64,000 nt of DNA from Sulfurospirillum sp. UCH001 (GTDB lineage: Bacteria; Campylobacterota; Campylobacteria; Campylobacterales; Sulfurospirillaceae): the NCBI RefSeq assembly GCF_001548035.1, contig NZ_AP014723.1:2480001-2544000 (forward strand), read 5' to 3'. A program made the position numbers and the translations under genes. The notes beneath the pieces are model-generated. The model was not told the DNA's origin, did no database searches, and saw nothing but the letters and a program-made list of their open reading frames with translations. This document shows positions 17,507 through 35,067 of this stretch, piece by piece; position 1 is the stretch's first letter, and each line of letters starts with the position of its first letter.

Positions 17507-19661
<2,155 letters not shown>

Positions 19662-19665
<4 letters not shown>

Positions 19666-20351
19666 GACTTGCCATTATCCCAGCACGTGGAGGCAGTAAA
19701 CGCATTCCTCGAAAAAACATTAAAGCATTTTGTGGTAAACCTATGATCGCATACAGCATTGAAGCAGCCCTTAAAAGTGGCTGTTTTGATAAAATTGTTG
19801 TGAGTACTGACGATGAAGAGATCGCAACATTGGCTCGCTCTTTAGGAGCGGAAGTTCCTTTTATGCGACCAAAAGAGCTCAGTGACGACCACACAGCGAC
19901 CATTCCTGTTATCGCTCATGCCATTACTGCTTCTGTTCGTGATATCAAAGATGTCGAAGCAGTCTGTTGTATCTATGCTACCGCTCCTTTTGTGCAACCA
20001 CACTACATTCAAGAAGCATATGAGAAACTGATAAAAACACATAGTACTTATGCATTTAGTGCAACGAGTTTCCCTTTCCCGATTCAGCGTGCTATTCGCC
20101 TTACCAAAGATGACCGTGTCGAGATGTTCTCACCTGAGCACTTTAACACCAGAAGCCAAGACTTAGAAGAAGCCTTTCATGACGCAGGGCAATTTTACTG
20201 GGGAACTCCCGAGGCATGGTTAGAAGGTAAAATTATCTTCGCACCTCACTCGACAGCTGTTCTTTTGCCTCGTCATTTGGTTCAAGATATCGATACACCA
20301 GAAGATTGGGTAAGAGCTGAGTTTATGTACAAAGCCCTTGCTCTTTCATGA
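19662..20351 (+). CDS. pseF: CMP-pseudaminic acid synthetase (cytidylyltransferase)
   Basis: Activates pseudaminic acid with CTP, the last step before transfer to flagellin. The start is ATG 19662, with AAAAGGA 8 nt upstream, giving 229 residues that begin MRLAIIPARGGSKRIPRKN, the CMP-sugar synthetase signature. An ATG three codons earlier sits on the ribosome-binding site and is rejected. Further family sequence is CCIYATAPFVQP and DIDTPEDW. The stop overlaps pseG by 4 bp. Order B-C-F-G-H-I is as in related Campylobacterota clusters. Confidence 0.96.
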
Positions 20352-21211
20352 GAACGTTAATTCGCAGTGACAGTTCAAGCACGATTGGGCTTGGACATAT
20401 TATGCGCGATTTGGTATTTGCCAAAAGTCTTGAAGGCGAAGTCATCTTTGCATGCCAAAACTTGGAAGGCAATATCATTGCTTCCATTCCTTATGAAGTC
20501 AAAATCTTAAAATCAAACGATGTTGAAGAACTTATAGAGCTGATTAGAACATTACAGATCACGTTGTTGGTAATCGATCATTACGGTATTGATATAGCGT
20601 ATGAACGCGCCATCAAAGAAGCAACGCAGGTAGAAATCCTAAGCTTTGATGACACCTACCAACTGCACCATTGCGATATTTTACTGAACCACAATATTTC
20701 AGCAAATAAAAAACGCTATAAAGATTTAGTTCCACCCTCTTGTGAACTTCGTTGCGGTATTTTATACACGCTCATACGCGATGAATTTAGAGAAGAAAAA
20801 AAACAAAAACGTAAAAAAATCTATGATCTCTTTATCGCAATGGGTGGAACCGACGCTAGCAACATCACACTTTCTATCTTAAAAACGTTGCCTAAAACAT
20901 TGCGCATCTGTGTCCTTACCACAACGGCAAATGCCCATCTCAAAGAACTTCAAGATTATGTTGTAGATTTTCCTACGATTGCTTTACACATCAACTCAAA
21001 CGAAGTTGCCAAATTACTGCATCAAAGTCACTTTGCCATTGTAACGCCAAGTGTGATGGTACATGAAGTACTCTTTATGGAAGTGCCCTTCATTGCGATT
21101 AAAGTAGCAGCAAATCAAGACGATATGTTTGAATACCTTCACAAACAAGGATACCCTGTGTTAAAGGAGTGGGATGCATCTTCATTTATGCAACTTTACA
21201 ACGCTCAGTGA
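20348..21211 (+). CDS. pseG: UDP-2,4-diacetamido-2,4,6-trideoxy-beta-L-altropyranose hydrolase
   Basis: Removes UDP from the nucleotide sugar before PseI condensation. 287 residues with a GT-B fold related to MurG. The N-terminal loop is SSTIGLGHIMRDL, with the Gly-rich turn and catalytic His (GLGHIMRD), then VIDHYGID, FIAMGGTDASN and HFAIVTPSVMVHEVLFMEVP, the UDP-binding region. The start overlaps pseF (ATGA), and the 3' end overlaps pseH by 38 bp, an unusually long overlap that argues for tight coupling. Confidence 0.94.
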   Translation: MRTLIRSDSSSTIGLGHIMRDLVFAKSLEGEVIFACQNLEGNIIASIPYEVKILKSNDVEELIELIRTLQITLLVIDHYGIDIAYERAIKEATQVEILSFDDTYQLHHCDILLNHNISANKKRYKDLVPPSCELRCGILYTLIRDEFREEKKQKRKKIYDLFIAMGGTDASNITLSILKTLPKTLRICVLTTTANAHLKELQDYVVDFPTIALHINSNEVAKLLHQSHFAIVTPSVMVHEVLFMEVPFIAIKVAANQDDMFEYLHKQGYPVLKEWDASSFMQLYNAQ

Positions 21212-21656
21212 ATCTCAAAAAAAGATGATTTTAACATGGCGTAACCATCCCAATGTCAAAGCGTATATGTATAACGATAAAGAGATTACAGAAGCAGAAC
21301 ATTTTGGATTTATAGAAACTCTAAAAAACCGTGAAGATAGACGCTATTTTCTCGTACAAGAGAACAAGAGTGATCTCGGTGTGATTGATTTTAATGCTAT
21401 TTCTAAAGAGTCTGCCATCATGGGCTTGTATGCCAATCCTACATTAACGCAAAAAGGAATTGGTTCACGCTTAATGGAGGCGATTGTAACGTACGCATTT
21501 GAAACATTAAATATACAAGCACTCAAAGCCGAAGTCTTTGCAGAAAATCAAAGAGCTAGAGCACTGTATGAAAAATTTGGATTTTGTGAAAAAGAACGTA
21601 AAAGCGTGAATGAAAAAGAGGTTATTTGTATGGAGTTAACAAATGAAAATCGGTAA
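21174..21656 (+). CDS. pseH: UDP-4-amino-sugar N-acetyltransferase
   Basis: GNAT-family enzyme that acetylates the 4-amino group made by PseC, the third pathway step. 160 residues. LTWRNHPNVKAYMY near the N-terminus and LYANPTLTQKGIGSRLMEAI (acetyl-CoA loop QKGIGS) are as in PseH. It starts 38 bp inside pseG; the AAAGGAGTGGG sequence just upstream of the ATG is a good ribosome-binding site. It overlaps pseI by 14 bp. Substrate is assigned by family and operon position. Confidence 0.92.
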   Translation: MHLHLCNFTTLSESQKKMILTWRNHPNVKAYMYNDKEITEAEHFGFIETLKNREDRRYFLVQENKSDLGVIDFNAISKESAIMGLYANPTLTQKGIGSRLMEAIVTYAFETLNIQALKAEVFAENQRARALYEKFGFCEKERKSVNEKEVICMELTNENR

Positions 21657-22680
21657 TTTTGACTTAAATAGCACGCGAACACTGATCATAGCTGAGCTTT
21701 CCGCCAATCATGGCAATAGCATAGAAATCGCAAAAGAAACGATTAGAGCAGCAAAAAAAGCAGGCGCTGATGCGATTAAGCTTCAAACCTATACCGCCGA
21801 TACATTAACACTCAATTGTGATAAAGAAGATTTTGTTGTCAAAGGCGGTACTTTGTGGGATAATAAAACTCTCTACGAACTCTATCATGAAGCCTATACG
21901 CCTTGGGAGTGGCATAAAGAGCTATTTGAATGCGCTCAAGAAGAGGGTTTGCTCTGCTTTTCAACACCTTTCGATAAAAGCGCCGTTGATTTTTTAGAAC
22001 AGTTTGATCCTCCTGCATACAAAGTCGCTAGTTTTGAAATCACAGACTACGAACTGGTACGCTATATGGCGTCTAAGCAAAGGCCTATGATTATCTCTAC
22101 CGGTATTGCGACACTGAATGAAATCGAAGATGTGGTACGCATCTGCCAAAGAGAAGATAACTCTGAGATTATTTTATTGCAGTGCACGTCATCTTATCCT
22201 GCACCACTAGAAGGTGCCAACCTTCTTACAATACCAGATCTAAGCAAACGCTTTGGTGTTATCGCAGGTTTTTCAGACCACACATTGGGTATTACTGCAC
22301 CTGTAACAGCTGTAGCGTTGGGTGCGAAAGTCATTGAAAAACATTTCATCTTAGATAGCTCTATTGGTGGAGCAGATGCCGCTTTTTCACTCGACACAAA
22401 TGCTTTTACAGAGATGGTACAAGCCGTCCGTGATGCTGAAAAATTGTTAGGTAAGCCTACATACTATACGGATGTAAAGACCATTAAGGGCAGACAGTTT
22501 TCAAGAAGTCTTTATATTGCCAAAGATATTGCAAAAGGCGAAGTGTTCAATGAAGATAATATTCGTTCCATTCGCCCTGGTTATGGGCTACATCCAAGGT
22601 ATCTCAAAGATGTTCTAGGCAAATGTGCAAAAGAAGATTTGAGCTTTGGAGATAGACTAAAAAAAGAGGATATTGAGTGA
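21643..22680 (+). CDS. pseI: Pseudaminic acid synthase
   Basis: Condenses the 6-deoxy-diacetamido-altrose with phosphoenolpyruvate to give pseudaminic acid (NeuB family). 345 residues: a TIM barrel with ELSANHGNSIEIAKE, ADAIKLQTYTADTLT, STPFDKSAVDFLEQF and GFSDHTLGI, then a C-terminal antifreeze-like SAF domain (FSRSLYIAKDIAKGE, RSIRPGYGLHP). The stop overlaps the GTG start of the next gene (GTGA). With this gene the pathway from UDP-GlcNAc to CMP-pseudaminic acid is complete within the operon. Confidence 0.96.
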   Translation: MKIGNFDLNSTRTLIIAELSANHGNSIEIAKETIRAAKKAGADAIKLQTYTADTLTLNCDKEDFVVKGGTLWDNKTLYELYHEAYTPWEWHKELFECAQEEGLLCFSTPFDKSAVDFLEQFDPPAYKVASFEITDYELVRYMASKQRPMIISTGIATLNEIEDVVRICQREDNSEIILLQCTSSYPAPLEGANLLTIPDLSKRFGVIAGFSDHTLGITAPVTAVALGAKVIEKHFILDSSIGGADAAFSLDTNAFTEMVQAVRDAEKLLGKPTYYTDVKTIKGRQFSRSLYIAKDIAKGEVFNEDNIRSIRPGYGLHPRYLKDVLGKCAKEDLSFGDRLKKEDIE

Positions 22681-23672
22681 AAAGAATTGCTCTCTTTGCC
22701 CACGATGCGGGAGGAGCTGAAATTCTTTTAGAATTACTAAAAGCCTCTTTGAACGTGGGAGAATTTCGCATTTTCTCTTTAGTGGCCTCTCCGTGTTACA
22801 CGCTTATCAAAACCAAAAAATTGGAATATTTTTGGAGTGAGATAACCTTTGATAAAAATGATATAGAAGCAAAACTTTCTCAATTTCAACCCTCAATCAT
22901 ACTTTATGGTACAGGATGGCAAAATCATTTGGAGTACCATTTTTTAAGCTATGCAAAAACGCATCATATTTCGAGTATTGCTTTTTTAGACCACTGGACA
23001 AATTATCGTGAGCGCTTTGGATATCCTGAAAAAAATTGGGAAGACAACCTGCCCTCATTCATTGCGGCACATGATCAAACCAGCTATGATAAAGTCACAG
23101 CCTTCGGCTTACCTAATGTCATCGCCATCAAGAACTATGCACTATTGAGCCAGCTCAAAGAAGCACAAAATGTCCTATCGAAGATACAAGAAAAGAACAC
23201 CCTTCTCTTTTTAAGTGAACCTACGGCTAAAGTAGCAACACGTGCTTTTGAAGATGCGTATGGCTGGGGTTTTACTGAAAAAGAGGTCTTTGAAGATATA
23301 CTCAAACATAAAGCCCTTTTTGAATGCGACACTATTCTGATTCGCCTGCACCCTTCCGATACACCTACGCTATACCAAAACATTGCTCCAGATGTTGCTT
23401 TGAGTCATGCTACGTTGTTAGAAGATATTGCTCAGGCTAAAGTCATTATTGGTATCGATACCGTAGCGCTTTATACGGCATACCTTTTAGGCAAAAAGGT
23501 CATCTCTTATATCCCTTCAACAAAACGCGAATGTTTAGTACCACTGCCCAAAGAAAATCAACTGACTAGCTTTGAACATTTTAACCTCTCATCTCTCAAA
23601 CAAATGAATGACAAGCCCGATAATTTCGGTATAGATTTTGCTTTATTTGTGGAAAAACAGTTAGGAAACTAA
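22677..23672 (+). CDS. Putative GT-B-like glycosyltransferase, flagellar sugar locus
   Basis: Not confidently recognised; 331 residues with a GTG start coupled to pseI. The N-terminus IALFAHDAGGAEILLELL has the Gly-rich turn of GT-B enzymes. The middle holds IAFLDHWTNYRERFG. The C-terminal half has ILIRLHPSDTP followed by AKVIIGIDTVALYTAYLLGKKVISY, resembling the nucleotide-sugar-binding half of sialyl- or CDP-glycerol-type transferases. The next gene's ATG overlaps the stop (TAATG). A role in transferring or processing a pseudaminic acid derivative is inferred from fold hints and position; no specific donor or acceptor can be named. Confidence 0.6.
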   Translation: MKRIALFAHDAGGAEILLELLKASLNVGEFRIFSLVASPCYTLIKTKKLEYFWSEITFDKNDIEAKLSQFQPSIILYGTGWQNHLEYHFLSYAKTHHISSIAFLDHWTNYRERFGYPEKNWEDNLPSFIAAHDQTSYDKVTAFGLPNVIAIKNYALLSQLKEAQNVLSKIQEKNTLLFLSEPTAKVATRAFEDAYGWGFTEKEVFEDILKHKALFECDTILIRLHPSDTPTLYQNIAPDVALSHATLLEDIAQAKVIIGIDTVALYTAYLLGKKVISYIPSTKRECLVPLPKENQLTSFEHFNLSSLKQMNDKPDNFGIDFALFVEKQLGN

Positions 23673-24631
23673 TGCCAAAATCTCTCTCATGTGCCATTAT
23701 CGGAGCTGGAAGTATTGGTGGTCTTATCGACTCGCCTAACAGTGAGAATATCGCCTCACATGCTCACGCATTTTTTAAACATCCAAACTGCAAGCTTGTT
23801 GCCATTTGTGAGCCAAATAGTGCTAACCAAAGCGCGTTTGTTGGGCGTTGGGATGAAGTGGAAATTTACCATTCTTTTGACTCTTTATTGCAGTATGAGA
23901 CCATCGATCTACTTGCCATCGCATCACCAACACCGTTTCATGCAAAAACACTCGAAGAGGCTTTACACGTAAAAAGTTTGCAAGCCATTATGTGCGAGAA
24001 ACCTCTTGTTGCAACGGCCAAAGAATTGGCACACATAAAACCATTACTTCTTTCAAGCGATAAAAAAATTCTCATTCATCTAATGCGACAGTACGACCCT
24101 TCTTTTATAAAACTTGCCCATGCTATAACTGCCCAAAAATGGGGAAAAGCCGTTCGTTTTCAAGGTGTTTTCACCAAGGGCTTACTGCACAATGGCATTC
24201 ACATGTTAGCACTTCTGAGTCATCTTTTTGGCGAAATCCAAAATATAAAATCCTTACATGTTACACATCATCATGACATCAGCGGCGATTTTGATGTGAC
24301 ATGCAAACACGCCAGAGGAGTGCTGAGTTGTATGGAAGAGCTTCCTTATTCGGCATTTGAGCTTACTATCTGGTTTGAAAATGGCAAAGTGGAGATCAAA
24401 GAGGGAGGCTCAAGGATTGATACATTTATCAAAAAACCTTCAACTCTATATGAAGGCTATTTTACGCTAGAACATGAAGAGACCTTACCCAATACATTGA
24501 AATATTATGCACTAAACTCGCTTGAATTTTTACTCCAAAACGACGATATAACCTGCAAACAGATCTTGCAAGAACACTTAGATGTTCATGCAAAAATTTT
24601 TGAAACCATTGCAAAAGAGAAACGACAATGA
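23672..24631 (+). CDS. Gfo/Idh/MocA-family oxidoreductase
   Basis: A 319-residue NAD(P)-dependent sugar dehydrogenase. The Rossmann loop SCAIIGAGSIGGLIDS is at the N-terminus, and MCEKPLVATAKEL carries the family EKP motif (catalytic Lys). The C-terminal dimerisation half contains the GLLHNGIHMLALLSHLFG stretch, with the conserved Asp/His region. It is linked by 4 bp to a DegT aminotransferase, a pair that commonly makes 3-amino or 4-amino nucleotide sugars. This suggests a second modified sugar, or modification of pseudaminic acid, but substrate is not known. Confidence 0.85.
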   Translation: MPKSLSCAIIGAGSIGGLIDSPNSENIASHAHAFFKHPNCKLVAICEPNSANQSAFVGRWDEVEIYHSFDSLLQYETIDLLAIASPTPFHAKTLEEALHVKSLQAIMCEKPLVATAKELAHIKPLLLSSDKKILIHLMRQYDPSFIKLAHAITAQKWGKAVRFQGVFTKGLLHNGIHMLALLSHLFGEIQNIKSLHVTHHHDISGDFDVTCKHARGVLSCMEELPYSAFELTIWFENGKVEIKEGGSRIDTFIKKPSTLYEGYFTLEHEETLPNTLKYYALNSLEFLLQNDDITCKQILQEHLDVHAKIFETIAKEKRQ

Positions 24632-25944
24632 AAAAATTAGCCATTAACGGCGGAGAAAAACTACGTTCTAACCCTTTCCCAGCGTATAACACGATAGGTG
24701 TAGAGGAAGAAGAGGCTGTTCTAAGAGTGCTTAGAAGCGGTAAACTCTCCACGTACCTCGGAGCTTGGCATCAGGATTTTTATGGAGGAAGCGAAGTACG
24801 TGCTTTTGAGCAAGAGTGGGCAACTTTTTTTGGTGTCAAACATGCGATTAGTGTTAACTCTGCCACTTCTGGACTTATCTGTGCAGTGGGTGCCGCGGGC
24901 ATTGAAGCAGGTGATGAAGTGATTGTGAGTCCTTATACCATGTCAGCCTCTGCCGTTGCACCATTATTTTACGGCGGTATCCCTGTTTTTGCTGATGTAG
25001 AAGAAGAGACCTACTGCCTAGACCCCAAAAGTGTTGAAGCAAAAATCACCCCTAAAACCAAAGCCATTATCGTGGTCGATATTTTCGGACAACCTTACAA
25101 TGTAGAAGCCATTAATGCCATTGCAAAAAAACATAACCTCATCGTCATCGAAGATGCCGCACAAGCCCCAGGAGCAATGTACAAAGAGCGTTTTGCAGGA
25201 ACCCTTGGCGATATGGGTGTTTTTTCACTCAATTACCACAAGCACATTCATTCAGGGGAAGGCGGTGTCATTGTCACCAATGATGACGCTTTAGCTAATA
25301 AACTCCAACTTATCCGCAACCACGCTGAATCGGTCATCGCCAATAAAGGCTTTAGCGCACCAAGCGAGCTTATCAACATGGTCGGTTTCAACTTCCGTAT
25401 GACAGAGATGGAGTGCGCAGTCGCTCGTGAACAGCTCAAAAAACTCCCGGATCTACTTACTGAGCGTCTTGAAAATGTTGCGTATATCAACGAACAACTA
25501 AAATGCATTCCATGCCTTAAAACAACAAAAACCAGAGAACATGTCAAACACGCTTTTTATGTACATCCTTTAGAGTTTGACGCTAGCCTTGCAGGTGTTC
25601 ACCGAGATGTTTTCATCAAAGCAGTTAAAGCGGAACTGCCTCGTACCATCATGCGTGATGATTCAGATGTGTTGATGGGATGTGGTTATGTAAAACCCAT
25701 CTATCTCCAACCGCTTTTTGCTCATAAAATTGCGTTTGGAAGCAAAGGGTACCCGTTTAATCTCTCCACGGTAACGTACACAAAAGGCGACTGTCCGGTA
25801 TGTGAGAGCTTACATTTTGAGAGACTTTTTACCCATGAACTCATGCGCCCTGGTATGAGCAGGAGCGATATGGATGATGTGGTAAGAGCGTTTGCCAAAG
25901 TATGGGAAAACAAAGAGGAATTAGTTATGGAACATCTAAAATGA
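24628..25944 (+). CDS. DegT/DnrJ/EryC1/StrS aminotransferase (long form)
   Basis: PLP-dependent sugar aminotransferase of 438 residues, longer than PseC (373). It opens with LAINGGEKLRSNPFPAY, which is typical of the StsC/AHBA-synthase-like branch. VIEDAAQAPGA has the PLP Asp, and the PLP lysine is K205 in SLNYHKHIHSGEGGV. The C-terminal third carries an extra cysteine-containing segment (TKGDCPVCESLHFERL), as in long-branch members. It pairs with the Gfo/Idh/MocA gene upstream, implying oxidation followed by transamination of a sugar or cyclitol. Its stop overlaps the next ATG (ATGA). Confidence 0.88.
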   Translation: MKKLAINGGEKLRSNPFPAYNTIGVEEEEAVLRVLRSGKLSTYLGAWHQDFYGGSEVRAFEQEWATFFGVKHAISVNSATSGLICAVGAAGIEAGDEVIVSPYTMSASAVAPLFYGGIPVFADVEEETYCLDPKSVEAKITPKTKAIIVVDIFGQPYNVEAINAIAKKHNLIVIEDAAQAPGAMYKERFAGTLGDMGVFSLNYHKHIHSGEGGVIVTNDDALANKLQLIRNHAESVIANKGFSAPSELINMVGFNFRMTEMECAVAREQLKKLPDLLTERLENVAYINEQLKCIPCLKTTKTREHVKHAFYVHPLEFDASLAGVHRDVFIKAVKAELPRTIMRDDSDVLMGCGYVKPIYLQPLFAHKIAFGSKGYPFNLSTVTYTKGDCPVCESLHFERLFTHELMRPGMSRSDMDDVVRAFAKVWENKEELVMEHLK

Positions 25945-26996
25945 ATTTTGTTTTTAAATATGAAGACTCACAAAATTTTGAAAAATTATGGAATCAATAC
26001 TTAACAAGTTATAATGTAGATTTTCAATACTCTCTCACTAGCATTGAATATTACCTTGCCTATTGCAATAATTTATATAAAGATAAAAGCTTTATTTTAG
26101 AAGTAGACAATCACTGTGTAGGTATCTGTTTTTTACCGATAGAATCAACAAAAGATGGTTTTTCTATCTCTATTGCAAACGGATATATCATGGCGCCATT
26201 AGCAAAGTCTTTGAAATATGAACAAATTATCTTTGATTGTATTGATAAAATTTGTGATGATTTAAATATTGTTATAGTCAAGTTTAAAGTGTCCATATTT
26301 GAAAATTTAAACTTTAATAGGCTTCGACTATATCGTTTCTTGGATACAACGAATACTACATGTATACTAGATTTGAACAACAGCCAAGAAGATTTATGGA
26401 TGAATCTTAGAAAAAGATATAAATCATTAATAAACTCCCTTACGAAGAACGGTGAATATTCTATTGTTTGTTCCAATGAATCTACTCTCAATGAATTGCA
26501 TAAATACTATGTAACTTTCCATAAAATTCATATGAAAAATGCAGGAAAATCACTTAAATCTAATCTCATATATACTAAACAATTAAACCTTGCTCAACAA
26601 AATCTTGCAACAATTATTGCAGTAAATTTTCAAAATCATCCCATTATCATTAATTATTTTTTTCACGACACTACCAATGTTGTTTATGCAAGCAATGCTT
26701 ATGACACCCATGAATCTTTTAAAAATCTACCTTTAAATCATTATCTCTTATGGCATTCAACACTATACTTTAAGCAACGTGGCTTTAAAAAATTTGGCTT
26801 TGGACAACCTTGTAGTCTTAATTCTATCAATGGTTTTATGGATTATGCTGATGAGAAAGAGTTAAGCATATCGCACTTTAAACGAGGGATGGGAACCCAA
26901 ATGATTTCACATATGCAAGGTATAAAATTTTTAAAGAAAGAGCCTTTACTTCAATTAATTGATCAATTTAAATCGGAGGTTACTAATGGACTTTAA
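25941..26996 (+). CDS. FemAB/GNAT-like acyltransferase in flagellar sugar locus
   Basis: 351 residues, start ATG at 25941 coupled to the aminotransferase stop. The C-terminal half (QQNLATIIAVNFQNHPIII, then YFFHDTTNVVYASNAYD and FKKFGFGQPCSLNSINGFMDYADE) resembles the second GNAT domain of FemAB/BioF2-like acyltransferases, which join an acyl or aminoacyl group to a sugar amine. The gene is visibly more AT-rich than its neighbours and uses many AAT, ATA and TTA codons, hinting at horizontal acquisition. It could acylate the amine made by the upstream aminotransferase. Family assignment is tentative. Confidence 0.6.
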   Translation: MNFVFKYEDSQNFEKLWNQYLTSYNVDFQYSLTSIEYYLAYCNNLYKDKSFILEVDNHCVGICFLPIESTKDGFSISIANGYIMAPLAKSLKYEQIIFDCIDKICDDLNIVIVKFKVSIFENLNFNRLRLYRFLDTTNTTCILDLNNSQEDLWMNLRKRYKSLINSLTKNGEYSIVCSNESTLNELHKYYVTFHKIHMKNAGKSLKSNLIYTKQLNLAQQNLATIIAVNFQNHPIIINYFFHDTTNVVYASNAYDTHESFKNLPLNHYLLWHSTLYFKQRGFKKFGFGQPCSLNSINGFMDYADEKELSISHFKRGMGTQMISHMQGIKFLKKEPLLQLIDQFKSEVTNGL

Positions 26997-27627
26997 CAAT
27001 ATTAAAGAGAAAGCTATCACTATCTATAACAATTCTGCTCAAAAATTTGGTGCACATACATTTGCGTCTGTTCACTGGGAAGACGAACAAAAAGCACTTT
27101 ATAGATATCATCTTATAAATAAACATATTGCGAAAGAGAGTGGAACGTCTGTTTTAGATATTGGCTGTGGGAATGGAGGATTATTTAAATACCTTAATTA
27201 TTCTGGTTTTAGAGGCTCATATAGGGGCTATGATATTAATGAAACATTGATTAATGCTGCAAAAAAAATTTATTCTAAGCACTCTGATTGTTTTGAAGTC
27301 ATTGATATTTTGAATGATGAAGCTACGCACACATATGATTACGTCGTTCTTAGTGGTCTATTTAACAGTAACTATGGGCAAGATTTTAAATGGATTTGCG
27401 CTTTTGTTAAAAAGATGTATGATCTCTCAAATAAAAAAGTTATTTTCAATGCTATTTCAACATATACAAACTTTAAAGAAGAGTCTATGTATTATATTGA
27501 TCCTTTAGAAATTTCAGATTTTATTATTAAAAACCTATCCAGTGAAATAATTGTAGAACATGGTCAATTACCCTATAATTTTCAAATCGTCATTAATAAA
27601 GATGCCTCATGGAAAACTTTAAATTAA
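26986..27627 (+). CDS. SAM-dependent methyltransferase, flagellar sugar locus
   Basis: 213-residue class I methyltransferase. The start is ATG 26986, with a perfect GGAGG 6 nt upstream; the upstream in-frame start at 26959 is rejected. Motif I is SVLDIGCGNGGLFKYL, then YRGYDINETLI, DILNDEATHTYDYVVLSG and FNAISTYTNF. It overlaps the previous gene by 11 bp and is AT-rich like it. It resembles the methyltransferase at 16106-16693. Likely target: a hydroxyl or amine of the flagellar sugar, by context only. Confidence 0.75.
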   Translation: MDFNNIKEKAITIYNNSAQKFGAHTFASVHWEDEQKALYRYHLINKHIAKESGTSVLDIGCGNGGLFKYLNYSGFRGSYRGYDINETLINAAKKIYSKHSDCFEVIDILNDEATHTYDYVVLSGLFNSNYGQDFKWICAFVKKMYDLSNKKVIFNAISTYTNFKEESMYYIDPLEISDFIIKNLSSEIIVEHGQLPYNFQIVINKDASWKTLN

Positions 27628-27641
27628 AAATGGAGACTAGT

Positions 27642-28265
27642 ATGAAACAATACCAAACTGAACAAGAAAAATTTTGGGCTGGAAAATTTGGCGATGAATA
27701 CATTTCTAGAAATAAAGAGCCATGGTTAATAGCTTCAAATTTAGCTCTTTTCTCATCCATTTTAAAGCGGACTAATCATGTGAATTCTATTATCGAATTT
27801 GGAGCAAATATAGGTATGAACATTCATGCCATTAAAAACTTACTTCCCAACACAAAACTTAGTGCTATTGAAATCAATGCTAAAGCAGTTGAACAACTTT
27901 CTCAGATTGAAAATTTAACTGTCTATCACCAGTCGATTTTTGATTTTGCATCCAATAAAAAAAATGATTTTGTCTTTTCTAAAGGTGTGTTAATTCACCT
28001 TGCGCCTACCATGCTTCCTAAGGTCTATAAGACTATGTATGAAAACAGTAACCGCTACATTTGTATGATTGAGTACTACAACCCTACGCCTATGGAAATC
28101 CCTTACCGAGAGCACAATGATAAGATGTATAAAAGAGACTTTGCTGGAGAGATCATGGATATATATCCTGATTTGCAACTAGTAGATTATGGTTTTATTT
28201 ACCGTAGAGATCCTGTATTTGTCCAAGGGGATTTGACATGGTTTTTGATGGAAAAGAGGGTATAA
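27642..28265 (+). CDS. Pseudaminic acid biosynthesis-associated methylase
   Basis: 207-residue class I methyltransferase of the family repeatedly found in pse clusters (pseudaminic acid biosynthesis-associated methylase). It opens with QTEQEKFWAGKFGDEYISRN and has the variant motif I SIIEFGANIGMNIHAI, then FVFSKGVLIHLAP and IEYYNPTPMEIPYR, all characteristic. The start is ATG 27642, with GGAG 6 nt upstream; two in-frame ATGs upstream lack ribosome-binding sites. It directly precedes maf (adjacent stop and start). It probably methylates pseudaminic acid or a precursor; the exact position is not known to me. Confidence 0.82.
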   Translation: MKQYQTEQEKFWAGKFGDEYISRNKEPWLIASNLALFSSILKRTNHVNSIIEFGANIGMNIHAIKNLLPNTKLSAIEINAKAVEQLSQIENLTVYHQSIFDFASNKKNDFVFSKGVLIHLAPTMLPKVYKTMYENSNRYICMIEYYNPTPMEIPYREHNDKMYKRDFAGEIMDIYPDLQLVDYGFIYRRDPVFVQGDLTWFLMEKRV

Positions 28266-30269
28266 ATGGAACAGATTGAACAACAAGCATTAATAACTTT
28301 TCAAAAAAATCTTGCTTACTTACAAACCTACCATCACGCTATTTATGAAAAAATCACCCTCCTCAATTCCCTGATTGAAGAAGGCCAATATATAGAACAC
28401 TATGCGCTAGAGTATAAAGAAGAAAGCTACTTTGATGTTTGTGAACTTTCCACGCACCAGTATTTATATAATGAGAATAGTCTAAAAAGTGCTCAAAGAG
28501 TTATAGAAGCATACAATCTTAAAAAAACAGGTGGTGTTTTTAAAGCTCAAAAATATTGCTATGCTACTGATGCACAAGCAGAAGCCATTGATAAAAGTGA
28601 GCTCTCTTTTCATAATGCACTATGGGCAACCATTAAAATTATAAACTATACTAAAAGATATGCTTCTGATGAAACGCACATGTATCGCTCTAACAAAGTT
28701 ATTTTTCTCGGTATTGGGCTAGGACTTTATATTCAAGGTATCATTAAAAAACTAAATCCAAAAGTTATTTTTATAAAAGAGACAAATCTTGAAATTTTTA
28801 GACTCTCTCTTTTTGTCACTGACTTTGAAGAAGCATTAAAAGATAAACTTGTCTATTTTTCTCTTACCGATGATGAATCACAAGAAAGAGAAACCTTCAT
28901 TGAGTTTCTTAATACAGGCAATAACTACAATCTCAATATCAAACACATACCATTTACTCTCAACTATCAAAGTGATCTTCAACGATTGCAAGCGCATGTA
29001 TTGTCACAAAGCTATATAAACTACGGATACAGTGCTATTTTATTGCGCTATATTGACTCTCCAAAGTACTTAGTCCAAAACTATGCTTTTATGAACATTA
29101 TGACACGCTACCACGGAAAAGAAGGCAATGTATTAAGTGAAAAACCTGTGCTTATGGTCTTTTCAGGCCCTTCAACTTCTAAAAATATAGAATGGCTTAA
29201 AGAACATAAAGATCGATTCATCATTGTTTCAGCTCTTTCAACATGCAGACTTTTACAAGCACATAGTATCACTCCAAACATTGTCGTACATATTGATCCA
29301 GGTGAAAACAGTGCCTTACTCTTTGAAGGCTTAGAACCAGCATATTTTCAAGATGTTATTACGATTTTAGCTTCTAATGTTGATGAAAAAACCGCGAATC
29401 GCTTCGATAAAGATCATATCTATTTTATTGAACAAGGTACGGAATACAAAAAAGGATTTGGTTACTTTTCGGCTCCAAGTGTTGGAGAATATACTTTAGG
29501 TATTATGATGATACTTGGTATTTCAAATATGTATATGTTAGGCGTTGACTTAGCTCTTGATCCAGAAACCATGCAAACACATGGAGGATATCACCCATAT
29601 CAAGCGACAGGGGCAATAGAAACACAAAATGCTTCACTCGATCCAAATGCTTCAGCAACTTATGTTAAAGGCAATTTTATTGAGAAAATTCCTACTCTTG
29701 AAGCTTATAAGCTCTCTATCGAACAAGCAGTTCTCTTTACAGATCGTCTTAAAAAAGAGCATCATCATATTTATAACTTAAGTAATGGTGCATATATAGA
29801 AGGATGTGAGCCTTTACATATTGAAAATTATGAATGGACAACATTTGAACCACTCGTTCGTGATGAGATACAACGAAAAATAGCTGCTTTTTTTGGAGCT
29901 ATTTCAGAAGCACAGTTCAATAAAAGTGATCGTGCACAGATGAATTATCAAGTCAATGAAGCAAAGAAACTCGAAAAACTTATCAAAGCATTTAAAAAGA
30001 AAAAATATGTCTCAACAGAAGCTTATCTTGAAACACTTGCAAAGCTTGCTTGGAATATTAGTGATATGAATAATAAAACAGGTTCTAATCTAGCAGAAGT
30101 TTATTATCAGTATTTTCAAATCATATTGAGTTATTTCTACGATTTTTTTAATACACAAGAGTTAGATACACCTTTTAAACACATTACCTCATTAAATAAT
30201 CTTCTTGTTGAACAATTGCTAAAAATGTCGGGATTATATATCTCAAAATTAGAAAGTTTTTTAAAGTAA
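28266..30269 (+). CDS. maf: Motility accessory factor (Maf) flagellin glycosyltransferase
   Basis: 667-residue Maf-family protein, thought to transfer nonulosonic acids such as pseudaminic acid from the CMP donor to Ser/Thr of flagellin in the cytoplasm before export. The central DUF115/MAF_flag10 domain is clear: LMVFSGPSTSKNI at about residues 296-308, VVHIDPGENS near 341, and GYHPYQATGAIETQN near 440. The N-terminal 250 residues match the Maf N-domain, and the C-terminus is helical. It ends the operon and faces the large flagellin gene, its likely acceptor, across a double terminator. No homopolymer tract that would allow phase variation is seen. Confidence 0.9.
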   Translation: MEQIEQQALITFQKNLAYLQTYHHAIYEKITLLNSLIEEGQYIEHYALEYKEESYFDVCELSTHQYLYNENSLKSAQRVIEAYNLKKTGGVFKAQKYCYATDAQAEAIDKSELSFHNALWATIKIINYTKRYASDETHMYRSNKVIFLGIGLGLYIQGIIKKLNPKVIFIKETNLEIFRLSLFVTDFEEALKDKLVYFSLTDDESQERETFIEFLNTGNNYNLNIKHIPFTLNYQSDLQRLQAHVLSQSYINYGYSAILLRYIDSPKYLVQNYAFMNIMTRYHGKEGNVLSEKPVLMVFSGPSTSKNIEWLKEHKDRFIIVSALSTCRLLQAHSITPNIVVHIDPGENSALLFEGLEPAYFQDVITILASNVDEKTANRFDKDHIYFIEQGTEYKKGFGYFSAPSVGEYTLGIMMILGISNMYMLGVDLALDPETMQTHGGYHPYQATGAIETQNASLDPNASATYVKGNFIEKIPTLEAYKLSIEQAVLFTDRLKKEHHHIYNLSNGAYIEGCEPLHIENYEWTTFEPLVRDEIQRKIAAFFGAISEAQFNKSDRAQMNYQVNEAKKLEKLIKAFKKKKYVSTEAYLETLAKLAWNISDMNNKTGSNLAEVYYQYFQIILSYFYDFFNTQELDTPFKHITSLNNLLVEQLLKMSGLYISKLESFLK

Positions 30270-30414: not shown

Positions 30415-32835
30415 CTACTGAAGTAGTTTAAGTACGTTTTGTTGTACAGAGTTAGCTTGACTCATTGCATAACTTCCTGACTGAGCAAGAATATTAAATT
30501 TAGAGAAGTTCGCTGATTCTGCAGCAAAGTCAACATCACGAATACCAGACTCTGCACTCTTAACATTTACTTGAGTTACAGAGATGTTATTGATAGTTGA
30601 AGTGATTTGATTTTGAACAGAACCCAAGTCTGAACGGATTGTGTCAAGGTTTGTCATCGCAGCACTTACAGTATCAATCGCTTTCATAGCACCTTCAAGT
30701 GTTGTAACATCGATTTTAGAAAGATTTGAAAATTCAGTCTCATCAAGAGCAACGCTATCTTGTCCACCATTTGCATTCATTGCAATTGTAGAGCCTAACT
30801 TAATCGTTGCATTTGTACCTGATGTTCCTTTAATCATTGTAAAGTCATCACTTACAACAACACTCGCTGTTAATGCAACATCTGTACCTAATGTTGTACC
30901 GGCTTTGATTCCAGGACCACTACCCGAGCCAACTTGTGCTGCAGTAAGATCTTGGTTAATAACCGTACCTGCTTTTAAAGTAGTACCTGTTGCTAAGATA
31001 GAACCCGCTTTGATGACCATATCTTGATTTAAAATAACATCAGCATTATTTTGAACAGCTGCCCCAAGTGTAGAACTCTCTTTAATCGTAGCACCTGTGC
31101 TTAAAACAGATGTACCAGCAAGTTTTGACTCAATGGTTGTTGTAAGAGTATTTGCACCTAAGTCTAATTTATCACCAAGGACAGTTCCTGCTTTCATAAT
31201 ACTGCCAGTTACGAGAACTGTATTATCTTTGATTACCATATCTTGACTTGTTGTTACCAAAGAAGATGTCTGAATATCTGCACCAAGTACAGTTCCCGCT
31301 AACAGCTTACTTCCTGCTGCAATTGCAGCATCTGCATCAAGCGTATCTACTTTCATTAACATATCTTTTGCAACGGTTAACTGATCAGCCAAGACAAGAT
31401 CTACATGAAGTGTTGTACCTGCTTTATAAAGAGTACCGCCATTATCAATATCCTGTGTCAGTGTTGTTCCTGCATCTAAAATTGAACCTGTAGCAAGAAC
31501 GGAACCTGCTTTGATCAGCATATCACTACTGAGGGTAGCTGTAGCAGTAAGATTTACCGTTGCACCTAAAGTTGTATCTTTACTAATCGTTGAACCAGCA
31601 GCAATGGTTGATCCTGTTTTTAAAAGCGTATCATTGCTTGCAGTAAATGATGCAGTTAACGTAAAGTCACCACCTACAGTACTTCCTGCAGCTAATGTAC
31701 TCTCTGCGGCAAATGAACTACCTATTGCAAGAGTTGAGTCTTCAACTGTTGTAACAGTGGCAGCAGTTGTAATGTCTTTACCTACAGCTGCACCCATTTT
31801 TGAACCAGTGATTTGGAATGTAGAAGAACCTGCTTGAACAACTTCTAGGTGACCAATAGTACTTAGGCTATCTGCTGTACTTGATGTAACACCAGAAAGA
31901 TCTCCTGTAACACTAATTGCACGACCATCAGATGATGTCAATGTAAGTTTACCATCAGCAGTTTTAGTTGCAGTAACACCTGTCTCTGTTGATTTGTTGT
32001 TAATCGCAGTTAACAATGTACCTTGGCTATCGTTTGCTGAAACATTGATAGCACCAATGTTAACGCCATTAATTGCAAAATCGCTTCCTGTAGTACCTGC
32101 AGTAATAGCAGCTGTTGTAGAACTTACGACAGCTTTTGCAGTAATACCTGTCTCAGCACTATGTTTGTTAATAATATCTGCCAATGCACCCATACCATTT
32201 GCTGGATCATTGTTCATTTGCAAATTAACAGACTCTAATGCGATTGAAGTACCACTAACAGCGCTTTTAAGCGTTAATTGGTTTTCTCCAAGCTGAGCAA
32301 CACTTAACTTAGCACGGCTTGTTTGACCAATTTGGCTTGTCTCAGCAGAAGCGATAGAAGCTTTAATTGTCTCATTCGCGTTTGCACCAACTTGGAACTC
32401 TTTATTAGTAAATGTACCAGAAAGAAGTTTTTGGCCGTTGAACGATGTTGTTTTTGCAATATTGTTCAAGTTCTCAAGAAGACGGTTAATGTCTTTTTGA
32501 ATCGCTAAACGAGATGCTGCATTTTGACCATCAGATGCTGCTTGTACAGATTTAGTCTTGATAGTATCAAGAATATTTGAGTACTCGCTAAGCGCACCGT
32601 CGGCAGTCTGGATCAAACCGATCGCATCATTACCGTTGTTGATAGCTTGACCTAATGAACTTGCTTGCGCACGAAGAGAGTTTGCAATAGCAAGACCAGA
32701 AGCATCATCTGCCGCTTTGTTGATACGAAGACCTGAGGACAATTTAGAAAGTGAATTGTCCAAGTTTCTGTTGTTGACCGCTGCACTTGTTTGTGCAGTA
32801 AGTGACGCAACGTTTGTGTTAATACGGAAACCCAT
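30415..32835 (-). CDS. flaA: Large flagellin with hexapeptide-repeat variable domain
   Basis: Flagellar filament subunit of 806 residues, far longer than the roughly 575 of C. jejuni FlaA. Residues 1-180 (MGFRINTNVASL, SSGLRINKAADDASG, TSFNGQKLLSG) and 700-806 (RSDLGSVQNQITSTINN, AESANFSKFNILAQSGSYAM, VLKLLQ) are the conserved D0/D1 helices. Flagellin IN-type motifs lie at about 247-315 (SDFAINGVNIGAINV). Residues about 365-690 are a long run of six-residue repeats of the form G[ST]x[LI]xx. Ser and Thr are very abundant there, giving many possible pseudaminic acid sites. It faces maf and the pse operon. A sigma-28 promoter precedes it. Whether other flagellins exist elsewhere is unknown. Confidence 0.93.
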   Translation of the reverse strand: MGFRINTNVASLTAQTSAAVNNRNLDNSLSKLSSGLRINKAADDASGLAIANSLRAQASSLGQAINNGNDAIGLIQTADGALSEYSNILDTIKTKSVQAASDGQNAASRLAIQKDINRLLENLNNIAKTTSFNGQKLLSGTFTNKEFQVGANANETIKASIASAETSQIGQTSRAKLSVAQLGENQLTLKSAVSGTSIALESVNLQMNNDPANGMGALADIINKHSAETGITAKAVVSSTTAAITAGTTGSDFAINGVNIGAINVSANDSQGTLLTAINNKSTETGVTATKTADGKLTLTSSDGRAISVTGDLSGVTSSTADSLSTIGHLEVVQAGSSTFQITGSKMGAAVGKDITTAATVTTVEDSTLAIGSSFAAESTLAAGSTVGGDFTLTASFTASNDTLLKTGSTIAAGSTISKDTTLGATVNLTATATLSSDMLIKAGSVLATGSILDAGTTLTQDIDNGGTLYKAGTTLHVDLVLADQLTVAKDMLMKVDTLDADAAIAAGSKLLAGTVLGADIQTSSLVTTSQDMVIKDNTVLVTGSIMKAGTVLGDKLDLGANTLTTTIESKLAGTSVLSTGATIKESSTLGAAVQNNADVILNQDMVIKAGSILATGTTLKAGTVINQDLTAAQVGSGSGPGIKAGTTLGTDVALTASVVVSDDFTMIKGTSGTNATIKLGSTIAMNANGGQDSVALDETEFSNLSKIDVTTLEGAMKAIDTVSAAMTNLDTIRSDLGSVQNQITSTINNISVTQVNVKSAESGIRDVDFAAESANFSKFNILAQSGSYAMSQANSVQQNVLKLLQ
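30766..31743 (-). repeat. Hexapeptide-like repeat region inside flagellin
   Basis: Encodes about residues 365-690. Units such as AGSVLA, TGSILD, AGTTLT, AGTVLG, TGSIMK, TGATIK and TGTTLK recur with Gly and Leu/Ile at every sixth place. A longer-range marker DM[LV][IM]K or a variant recurs at about residues 402, 438, 491, 532, 605 and 664. DNA of the units is diverged, so this is an old amplification. Confidence 0.8.
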
Positions 32836-32890
32836 GATAAATCCTTTTATCTTTTGTATTTCGCAGGCATCCTTGCCTTTGATGAAAACA

Positions 32891-32917
32891 AGATCGGAGT
32901 CTTGTAAAAAAACTTTA
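32891..32917 (-). promoter_or_regulatory. Sigma-28 (FliA) promoter of the flagellin gene
   Basis: On the minus strand TAAAGTTT, an 11-bp spacer and TCCGATCT match the FliA consensus TAAAGTTT-N11-GCCGATAA; the -35 is perfect and the -10 core CCGAT is present. It lies about 55-82 nt before the ATG, leaving a leader of roughly 50 nt with an AAAAGGA ribosome-binding site. Confidence 0.82.
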
Positions 32918-32994
32918 ATACGTACAACAATTTTTAAAAAGATTTTTTTTTAGATAGAATACACAAAAATGTTTACATATAAAATGGAAAAGCA

Positions 32995-35067
32995 GTGAAA
33001 AATCTCATTATTGTGGAATCTCCCACAAAAGCAAAAACAATTAAGAATTTTTTGGGTAAAAACTATACCGTTGTCGCATCTAAGGGACATATTCGTGATC
33101 TTCCAAAAAGCAGTTTTGGCATCAAAATTGATAACCAAACCTTTATTCCAGAGTACCGTATCCCTAAAGACCATGCCAGTGTTGTCAAAGAGATTAAAGA
33201 TTTAGCCAAAGAGGCAGATCAAGTCTATATCGCGACCGATGAGGACCGCGAAGGTGAAGCGATTGGATATCATATCGCAACTGCTATTGGGAAAGACCCT
33301 AAAGTATTACCGCGTATTGTTTTTCATGAAATTACGAAAAATGCTATTACACATGCATTAGAGAACCCTAGAGTTTTAGATGAAAGCAGTATCAATGCGC
33401 AACAAGCACGTCGCTTACTTGATCGCATCGTGGGTTATAAACTCTCACCCCTACTCTCTTCCAAAATTCAAAAAGGATTAAGTGCTGGTCGTGTCCAGTC
33501 TTCCACACTTAAAATCGTCGTTGATCGAGAAAAAGAGATCAGAGCTTTTAAAGAAGAAGAGTTTTGGAGCATTGATGCACTGTTTAATAAAACAATTGAA
33601 GCCTCTTTGGTGGAATTTGAGAATGAAAAAATCGAGAAAATGACCATTACAAATGGTGATCGTGCTCATGCTATTAAAGAAAAACTCCTCAAAGAAGCAT
33701 TTAAAGTAGCTCTTTTAGAGAAAAAAGAACGTGAAAGTTCTCCTTCCCCTTCTTTTATGACATCAACACTGCAGCAAAGTGCTTCAAGTGCGCTTGGATA
33801 CTCTCCTAAAAAAACGATGATGATTGCACAAACACTTTATGAAGGTGTAAAAACGCATCAAGGTGTTATGGGTGTGATTACCTATATGAGAACAGATTCC
33901 CTCAATATCTCTAAAGAAGCAATTGATGCGGCACGTGAACAGATTAAAAAAGAGTATGGTGCTGCATATCTTCCTGAAAAACCACGTTTTTATACCAATA
34001 AATCAAAAGGTGCTCAAGAGGCACACGAAGCGATTCGCCCTACAATTTTAGAGTTTACACCTACGATTGCTAAAGAATTTTTGAAACCCGATGAACTTAA
34101 ACTCTATACTCTGATTTATAACCGCTTCCTTGCTTCTCAAATGAATAATGCACGCTTTGAATCTCAAACATTGGTATTTGAAAGCAATAGTGGCAAGTTT
34201 AAAGCAAGCGGCCGAAAACTGCTTTTTGATGGTTTCTATAAAGTCTATGGTGATAATGACAAAGATAAACTTTTACCCGATCTTGCATTGGGACAAGAAG
34301 TAAAACTTTCTAAAATCGATGCAAACCAACATTTTACAGAGCCTCCTTCACGCTACTCTGAAGCAAGTTTGATTAAAAAATTAGAAAGTTTGGGGATTGG
34401 ACGTCCTTCAACGTACGCACCAACCATATCTGTTTTAACAGCTCGTGATTACATTACCATCGAAAAAAAGCAACTCGTTCCTACAGAAATTGCTTTTAGC
34501 GTGACTGAACTCTTAGAAAAACACTTTCCTCAAATTGTCGATTCTTCTTTCACATCTACAATGGAAGAAACGCTCGACTTAATCGCTGAAGACAAAGAGA
34601 ACTGGCAAACAACCTTATGGAACTTTTATGAGCCATTTGAAAAGCAAGTGAGTGAAGGAAAAACAAATATTGAGAGTCAAAAAGTTGTTGTATTCACGGG
34701 GGAGATGTGTCCTGAGTGTGGCAAAGAACTCGTACGTCGAAAAGGGCGTTTTGGCGAGTTTATCGCTTGTAGTACCTATCCTACGTGTAAATACACCCAA
34801 AATCTTAAAAAAGTAACGACTGCTACGCCTAAAGAAAAAATTACACTTGCGGTTCCATGTCCTGAGTGTGGTGGAGCCATTATTGAACGTAGTTCTCGTA
34901 GAGGAAAATTCTTTGGTTGCGGAAATTACCCTAAATGTAAATTTATCTCCAATCATGAACCAACCGATAAAAAATGCCCAGAATGTGGCTATATAATGTC
35001 TAAACGTGAACTGCGTAAAAAAGAGATCTATGAATGCATTAAGTGCAAACACAAAGAGGAAGCCTAA
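32995..35067 (+). CDS. topA: DNA topoisomerase I
   Basis: Type IA topoisomerase relaxing negative supercoils; 690 residues. Toprim domain: IVESPTKAKTIKNFLG at the start and YIATDEDREGEAI (the DxDxE-type metal site). The active-site Tyr is in GVITYMRTDS near residue 300. Three C-terminal zinc ribbons follow, each beginning CPECG (about residues 570, 622 and 660). The start codon is GTG; an ATG 11 nt upstream is out of frame. It is divergent from the flagellin gene and followed by bioB, an order I recall from C. jejuni. Confidence 0.97.
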   Translation: MKNLIIVESPTKAKTIKNFLGKNYTVVASKGHIRDLPKSSFGIKIDNQTFIPEYRIPKDHASVVKEIKDLAKEADQVYIATDEDREGEAIGYHIATAIGKDPKVLPRIVFHEITKNAITHALENPRVLDESSINAQQARRLLDRIVGYKLSPLLSSKIQKGLSAGRVQSSTLKIVVDREKEIRAFKEEEFWSIDALFNKTIEASLVEFENEKIEKMTITNGDRAHAIKEKLLKEAFKVALLEKKERESSPSPSFMTSTLQQSASSALGYSPKKTMMIAQTLYEGVKTHQGVMGVITYMRTDSLNISKEAIDAAREQIKKEYGAAYLPEKPRFYTNKSKGAQEAHEAIRPTILEFTPTIAKEFLKPDELKLYTLIYNRFLASQMNNARFESQTLVFESNSGKFKASGRKLLFDGFYKVYGDNDKDKLLPDLALGQEVKLSKIDANQHFTEPPSRYSEASLIKKLESLGIGRPSTYAPTISVLTARDYITIEKKQLVPTEIAFSVTELLEKHFPQIVDSSFTSTMEETLDLIAEDKENWQTTLWNFYEPFEKQVSEGKTNIESQKVVVFTGEMCPECGKELVRRKGRFGEFIACSTYPTCKYTQNLKKVTTATPKEKITLAVPCPECGGAIIERSSRRGKFFGCGNYPKCKFISNHEPTDKKCPECGYIMSKRELRKKEIYECIKCKHKEEA

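Follow-up and report, generated by a model that had tools for sequence, protein, structure and literature searches.

A Sulfurospirillum flagellin whose outer domain is predicted to be a β-solenoid, probably left-handed, and which is linked to a Maf gene

Introduction

Flagellin outer domains are among the most diverse proteins, and their folds are known mainly from solved filaments. The locus described here raises the question of what fold is adopted by the central part of a flagellin that is built of short repeats, and of how such a domain varies and is transmitted. The protein, of 806 amino acids, is encoded in a window of 64,000 nucleotides of Sulfurospirillum sp. UCH001 (contig NZ_AP014723.1), the window being the whole stretch of DNA that was analysed. 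An earlier note on this DNA had drawn attention to a run of hexapeptide-like repeats at 30766-31743, which corresponds to residues 365-690 of the flagellin. From the results given below, the protein is probably a filament flagellin with a left-handed β-helix (LbH) as outer scaffold and a variable surface, which is exchanged together with a dedicated Maf gene.

The flagellin and the placement of its central domain

The Flagellin_N and Flagellin_C domains, at the two ends of the protein, are both above the Pfam cut-off (Table 1). A search of the 2.6-Mb genome recovered a single full-length flagellin gene, the one in question, the other match being a much smaller flagellin-like protein. As the sole full-length flagellin of the genome, the 806-residue protein would be the one that is assembled into the filament. 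In the intergenic region before the gene (32836-32994), TTAAAG is followed 15 bases further by CCGATCTT, which by eye resembles a sigma-28 flagellin promoter.

Table 1. Location of the features discussed, in positions of the window
Feature	Coordinates	Strand	Basis
Flagellin-like protein, 239 aa	16723-17442		Other flagellin match in the genome
Pseudaminic acid biosynthesis genes pseB, pseC, pseF, pseG, pseH, pseI	17540..22680	+	NCBIfam equivalogs above cut-off
Maf-family flagellin glycosyltransferase gene, convergent with the flagellin	28266..30269	+	FlagModPseD 6.4e-18; MptE-like and Maf_flag10_N
Long flagellin, 806 aa	30415..32835	-	Pfam Flagellin_N 3e-44, Flagellin_C 7.4e-30
Conserved C-terminal D1/D0 part, residues 709-806	30418..30711	-	Flagellin_C 719-804; alignment to 6x80, 9ygu
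Predicted LbH solenoid, residues 345-697	30745..31803	-	AlphaFold2 model, LbH HMM and PDB profile matches, controls
D2-like part, residues about 146-344	31804..32400	-	Flagellin_IN 251-302, 1.1e-08; aligns with 6x80
Conserved N-terminal D0/D1 part, residues 1-145	32401..32835	-	Pfam Flagellin_N, residues 4-142
topA, divergent neighbour fixing the locus in both forms	32995..35067	+	Adjoins the flagellin in long- and short-form genomes

Campylobacter jejuni FlaA (6x80) aligns well with the protein over residues 1 to about 345, and again from about 709. Since the alignment holds on both sides of the solenoid, the earlier placement of the repeats between conserved ends, in the exposed central region, is supported. 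By this alignment the solenoid appears to replace the outermost D3 domain that Campylobacter FlaA has at the same place, and it is presumably exposed on the filament.

Six-residue periodicity of the central domain

A periodicity of six residues is found in the hydrophobic residues of region 365-690, with an autocorrelation z of 8.1 at lag 6. The spectrum peaks at a period of 5.95 (power 26.8), while the power of shuffled sequences, evaluated at five periods between 5.5 and 6.5, reaches 6.0 at most. The period lies between 5.91 and 6.14 in all 13 long orthologs of the genus, and the periodicity claimed at the outset is thus confirmed. It had been described as a recurrence of Gly and Leu/Ile; both do recur at lag 6, but the aliphatics contribute more to the signal than Gly does, with z 7.0 for Leu/Ile alone and z 4.1 for Gly. 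The strict LbH consensus [LIV][GAED]xx[STAV]x is weakly enriched (19 occurrences versus 13.4 expected, P=0.054). Self-similarity computed with a substitution matrix peaks at lag 6 (z 8.1) and lag 36 (z 6.2); it is also present at lag 12 (z 6.0) and is weaker at lag 18 (z 3.5). The real repeat unit is one of 36 residues, alternating, which reads roughly DMLIKAGSxLAxGSxLxAGTxLGxDxxLTAxxTLxS.

Predicted fold of the central domain

The check proposed in the earlier note, structure prediction of the central residues, yields a solenoid. AlphaFold2 models residues 345-697 alone as a regular solenoid with a mean pLDDT of 90.3 and a pTM of 0.82 (five models at 87-90), and the same solenoid is present in the full-length model, with residues 350-690 at high confidence; the alignment behind these models is shallow (17 ortholog rows, Neff 2.5). 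The modelled strands are one to three residues long and follow one another mostly every 5-7 residues. On the strand positions of the model, the marker DM[LV][IM]K, previously considered to recur irregularly, is regular: the strands that carry it have indices 2, 8, 14, 23, 29, 35 and 41, all of them 2 modulo 3. With three sides to a coil, these strands therefore share one face, where the marker comes about every 36 residues. Counted by this marker face, a coil of about 18 residues contains three short strands. The register of the marker is shifted by two extra coils and by small loops, the spacings of 53 and 59 residues comprising nine strands instead of six, that is, one extra three-strand coil each.

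Profile comparisons relate the solenoid to LbH proteins. Pfam LbH_EIF2B matches 17 of 17 members, at 35.4 bits for the domain alone and hence under its cut-off of 54, and Hexapep matches 14 of 17, at 29.4 bits for the domain alone against a cut-off of 27 and at 21.6, below that cut-off, in the full-length scan. The NCBIfam models NeuD and LpxD match 17/17 and 12/17 solenoids, respectively, with values down to 2.6e-13. The cut-offs of these enzyme families are missed by far (42.5 bits versus 207 for LpxD, 35.4 versus 160.8 for NeuD); membership in an LbH acyltransferase family was rejected on these LpxD and NeuD scores under the curated cut-offs, although the fold signature is shared with such enzymes. 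In a profile search of the PDB, the 14 matches at E up to 0.01 were all named as LbH-type enzymes or γ-carbonic-anhydrase-like proteins, and comprised QdtC, LpxD, GlmU, WxcM, LpxA, a DapD-type acetyltransferase, other N-acetyltransferases, VioB and a γ-carbonic-anhydrase-like protein. Reversed solenoid sequences, in which composition and period are kept, gave no HMM or PDB profile match, and shuffled ones no HMM match. Comparison by hhalign with the LpxD of the same genome gave 89.7% (E 1.8e-6), and with its bactofilin 0.1%. The solenoid is most likely a left-handed β-helix, a handedness that is taken from the sequence relationship. At 4.8 Å per coil, its approximately 17-18 coils of 18 residues would measure roughly 8-9 nm if extended.

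That the domain is some other β-solenoid, either right-handed and three-sided like bactofilin or two-sided with a coil of 12 residues, seems rather unlikely. Such a reading could draw on the self-similarity at lag 12, on the LbH handedness being read from sequence and not from coordinates, and on the structure searches: Foldseek and VIA-align with the domain model alone returned no LbH structure and no credible match of any kind, and with the full-length model the Foldseek (PDB, BFVD) and VIA-align results were taken up by matches to flagellin cores and to helices. The lack of a match for a solenoid of pLDDT 90 is not evidence of a differing fold, yet it is unexplained, given that many LbH structures are known; it may be an artefact of searching with a repetitive model, or the geometry may truly differ. 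Against the right-handed variant stand the hhalign value of 0.1% and the absence of PF04519 from the Pfam matches, by which a bactofilin-type solenoid was ruled out, and against the two-sided one the strand counting, since marker strands agree modulo 3 and not modulo 2; the LbH HMM matches, moreover, are directional. Hence, of the initial proposal of a β-helix or bactofilin-like solenoid, the β-solenoid stands, as an LbH by its profiles, and the bactofilin likeness does not.

Orientation of the hexad positions and the question of glycosylation

One position of the hexad is aliphatic in 100% of the 52 strands, the register having been chosen in its favour. Two residues ahead of the aliphatic position comes the small one, which is occupied by Ser/Thr in 52% of cases and would face inward in LbH geometry, whereas the position between the two would face outward and has 42% Ser/Thr, mostly Thr. 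Richness in Ser/Thr by itself is a poor guide to glycosylation, because the richest position would face inward; the suggestion that the repeats are rich in Ser/Thr for glycosylation is thereby weakened, and retains the outward position in its favour.

The genes for pseudaminic acid synthesis and a Maf transferase gene are neighbours of the flagellin (Table 1). The linked Maf protein probably adds pseudaminic acid, the product of the pse genes, to the flagellin. The stretch from the pse genes to maf (22677-28265) forms an island with a second PseC-like aminotransferase at 24628-25944 and, at 26959-28265, two ORFs that by eye read as methyltransferases; its content suggests that the sugar may be modified further.

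Variation and origin of the repeats

Complete copies of the long flagellin have 804-813 aa in the genus and 801-813 aa when other genera are included. A variation in the number of units across Sulfurospirillum, for which the earlier note proposed a comparison, was not found. The solenoid is the hypervariable region of the flagellin. The window protein and that of genome G008 are 97-98% identical at their ends and 49-55% in the solenoid, and those of S. cavolei (G010) and G014 are 96-100% identical outside the solenoid and 62-70% inside; between the window protein and that of S. cavolei, identity is 83% for the N-terminus and 86% for the solenoid. Such a mosaic of identities is the pattern that would be expected from exchange of the outer domain by recombination.

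It had also been suggested that the repeats could have arisen when AGSGFS-type units like those in Campylobacter FlaA expanded, an origin that is improbable. FlaA does bear AGSGFSSGS-like stretches in roughly the corresponding place, and some of them are aligned weakly by phmmer with the initial part of the solenoid. The length is nevertheless constant, intermediates are absent among the forms seen, the short flagellins of Sulfurospirillum do not have such units, and the long forms constitute one clade across genera. A phage origin was rejected as well, tblastn of the solenoid having given no match in 50,697 phage records, though the phage family phrog_5353, of unknown function, matches 14 of the 17 solenoids, the best at 6.1e-12.

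Long and short forms and their Maf genes

Among 24 genomes of the genus, 13 have the long form and nine an intact short flagellin of 481-493 aa; the short-type gene of G020 is broken or incompletely recovered, and the search of G018 recovered no full-length flagellin. The two forms alternate at the same locus next to topA, and each is accompanied by a Maf gene of its own. In every one of the 19 non-redundant long loci examined, the strand opposite to the flagellin carries a Maf-family gene. It adjoins the flagellin tail to tail, except at tandem and Sulfuricurvum loci, where it lies just past the second copy or no more than about 1.3 kb away. The long-type Maf, searched genome-wide, is present in 13/13 long-form genomes and in 0/9 intact short-form ones, the 23% match of G006 being its own, different Maf. 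In each of the seven short loci inspected, a co-directional gene lies just downstream of the flagellin. Three of these genes belong to the Maf family by Pfam, three are 57-92% identical to at least one of those, and the seventh resembles one Pfam-confirmed Maf in length and N-terminus only. Identity between short-locus and long-type Maf proteins is 21-25%, over partial alignments. Maf type therefore tracks flagellin type, and both switch together as one cassette. In length, the convergent PseD-like Maf that accompanies long flagellins has 667 aa, and the co-directional ones next to short flagellins 627-932 aa.

Exchange between genera and distribution

In a tree of topA, three changes are required to account for the long/short label, and starred branches force two or more of them. 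In a tree of the flagellin ends, all long forms group in one clade (85/88) that takes in Sulfurimonas, Sulfuricurvum and other genera besides Sulfurospirillum, and the short Sulfurospirillum flagellins fall in a separate one (100/100). Monophyly of the Sulfurospirillum long flagellins is rejected (p-AU 1.9e-54). The long form has crossed between Sulfurospirillum and Sulfurimonas.

Strong solenoid matches were obtained, in the order and phylum draws, only in the family of the window (f1), in family f17 and in one genome of family f7, and in the phylum draw they occur in 14 of 397 genomes. The carriers are Sulfurospirillum (e.g. S. cavolei, S. diekertiae), Sulfurimonas, Sulfuricurvum and relatives. 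Most of the other Campylobacterota flagellin frames listed have about 470-650 aa. The weak matches across the order, in frames of about 315-345 aa, are by length and score probably LpxD and its kin, and no flagellins.

Some Sulfurimonas-type genomes have long flagellins in tandem (L034:5023-10068, L039:3863-8909, G318, G395), the copies being nearly identical in L034, L039 and G318. In Sulfurimonas sp. UBA6014 (L045:5026-6165, L069 / G335) the frame is broken, with 380 aa and later pieces that carry a stop, and is either a pseudogene or an assembly error.

Proposed working of the outer domain

The LbH coil would hold the inward aliphatic and small residues fixed, and leave the outward ones free to vary. 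The solenoid could thus act as a rigid outer rod or scaffold whose surface changes without harm to export or assembly, and perhaps thickens the filament. The selective reason for a changing surface would most likely be evasion of phages that bind the flagellum, or of other surface recognition. The flagellin gene is exchanged among Campylobacterales with its dedicated Maf glycosyltransferase gene, whose product probably glycosylates the flagellin. With somewhat less than even confidence, it can further be proposed that these proteins represent a class of filaments coated with LbH, in which an acyltransferase-type scaffold with a hypervariable surface is carried between genera in a cassette of flagellin plus Maf, the Maf being matched to the outer domain. 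In the literature that was searched, nothing relevant was found on a left-handed β-helix or solenoid in flagellins. If the proposal is true, the domain is a new outer-domain scaffold with a clear inside/outside code, and the sequence by itself could therefore reveal how the surface varies. Because outer-domain and Maf types are paired within one genus, the acceptor specificity of Maf becomes directly testable.

A separate function of the solenoid in binding or catalysis, comparable to that of the proteolytic flagellins, is highly improbable, even if enzymatic inserts do occur in flagellins, as described in PMC5595980, and LbH proteins are mostly acyltransferases. In the solenoid, the only His (residue 478) is missing from most orthologs, Cys is absent, and most of the sequence is not conserved. 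Scarcely credible is a low-complexity Ala/Gly/Ser/Thr linker whose periodicity comes from composition, for although the composition is biased (5 aromatics/Cys and 1 Pro in 353 residues) and AlphaFold2 often assigns high confidence to regular repeats, shuffles of the same composition have neither periodicity nor HMM matches, and length is conserved and inward positions are aligned in orthologs that are 35-86% identical.

Comparison with known systems

The LbH scaffold proposed here can be compared with several known systems. C. jejuni FlaA (6x80) and H. pylori FlaA/FlaB (9ygu, 9yh1) have the same D0/D1 core and the same D2-like part with Flagellin_IN, and their outer domain starts and ends at the same points. 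They differ in having 508-576 aa, a far shorter outer domain and no hexad solenoid; in the solenoid profile search of PDB sequences, no flagellin was among the matches. The acyltransferases LpxD, LpxA, NeuD and QdtC are alike in their hexads, their 18-residue coils and the directional HMM and PDB profile similarity. Unlike them, the solenoid has about 17-18 coils per chain and an alternating unit of 36 residues, resides inside a flagellin and does not have their catalytic His pattern.

Among flagellins with unusual outer regions, the flagellinolysins are proteolytic and carry enzymatic inserts, according to PMC5595980. In that account they likewise have a folded foreign domain in the flagellin hypervariable region, but the domain is a metallopeptidase, whereas the solenoid seems to be structural, with no sign of catalysis. 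The solenoid flagellin as a flagellinolysin was rejected, no peptidase family being among its Pfam matches. The giant flagellins of marine γ-proteobacteria, as presented in PMC6248924, are alike in their enlarged outer region and in the thicker filament that is expected; they have over 1000 aa versus 806 aa here, and the likeness drawn here is one of size. Finally, the H. pylori Maf-type gene jhp0106 lies just downstream of flaB (PMC5368276), so that there, too, a flagellin gene adjoins a Maf-type gene. The H. pylori pair is co-directional, as are the short-form loci of Sulfurospirillum, whereas the Maf gene of the long form is convergent and belongs to a different subfamily.
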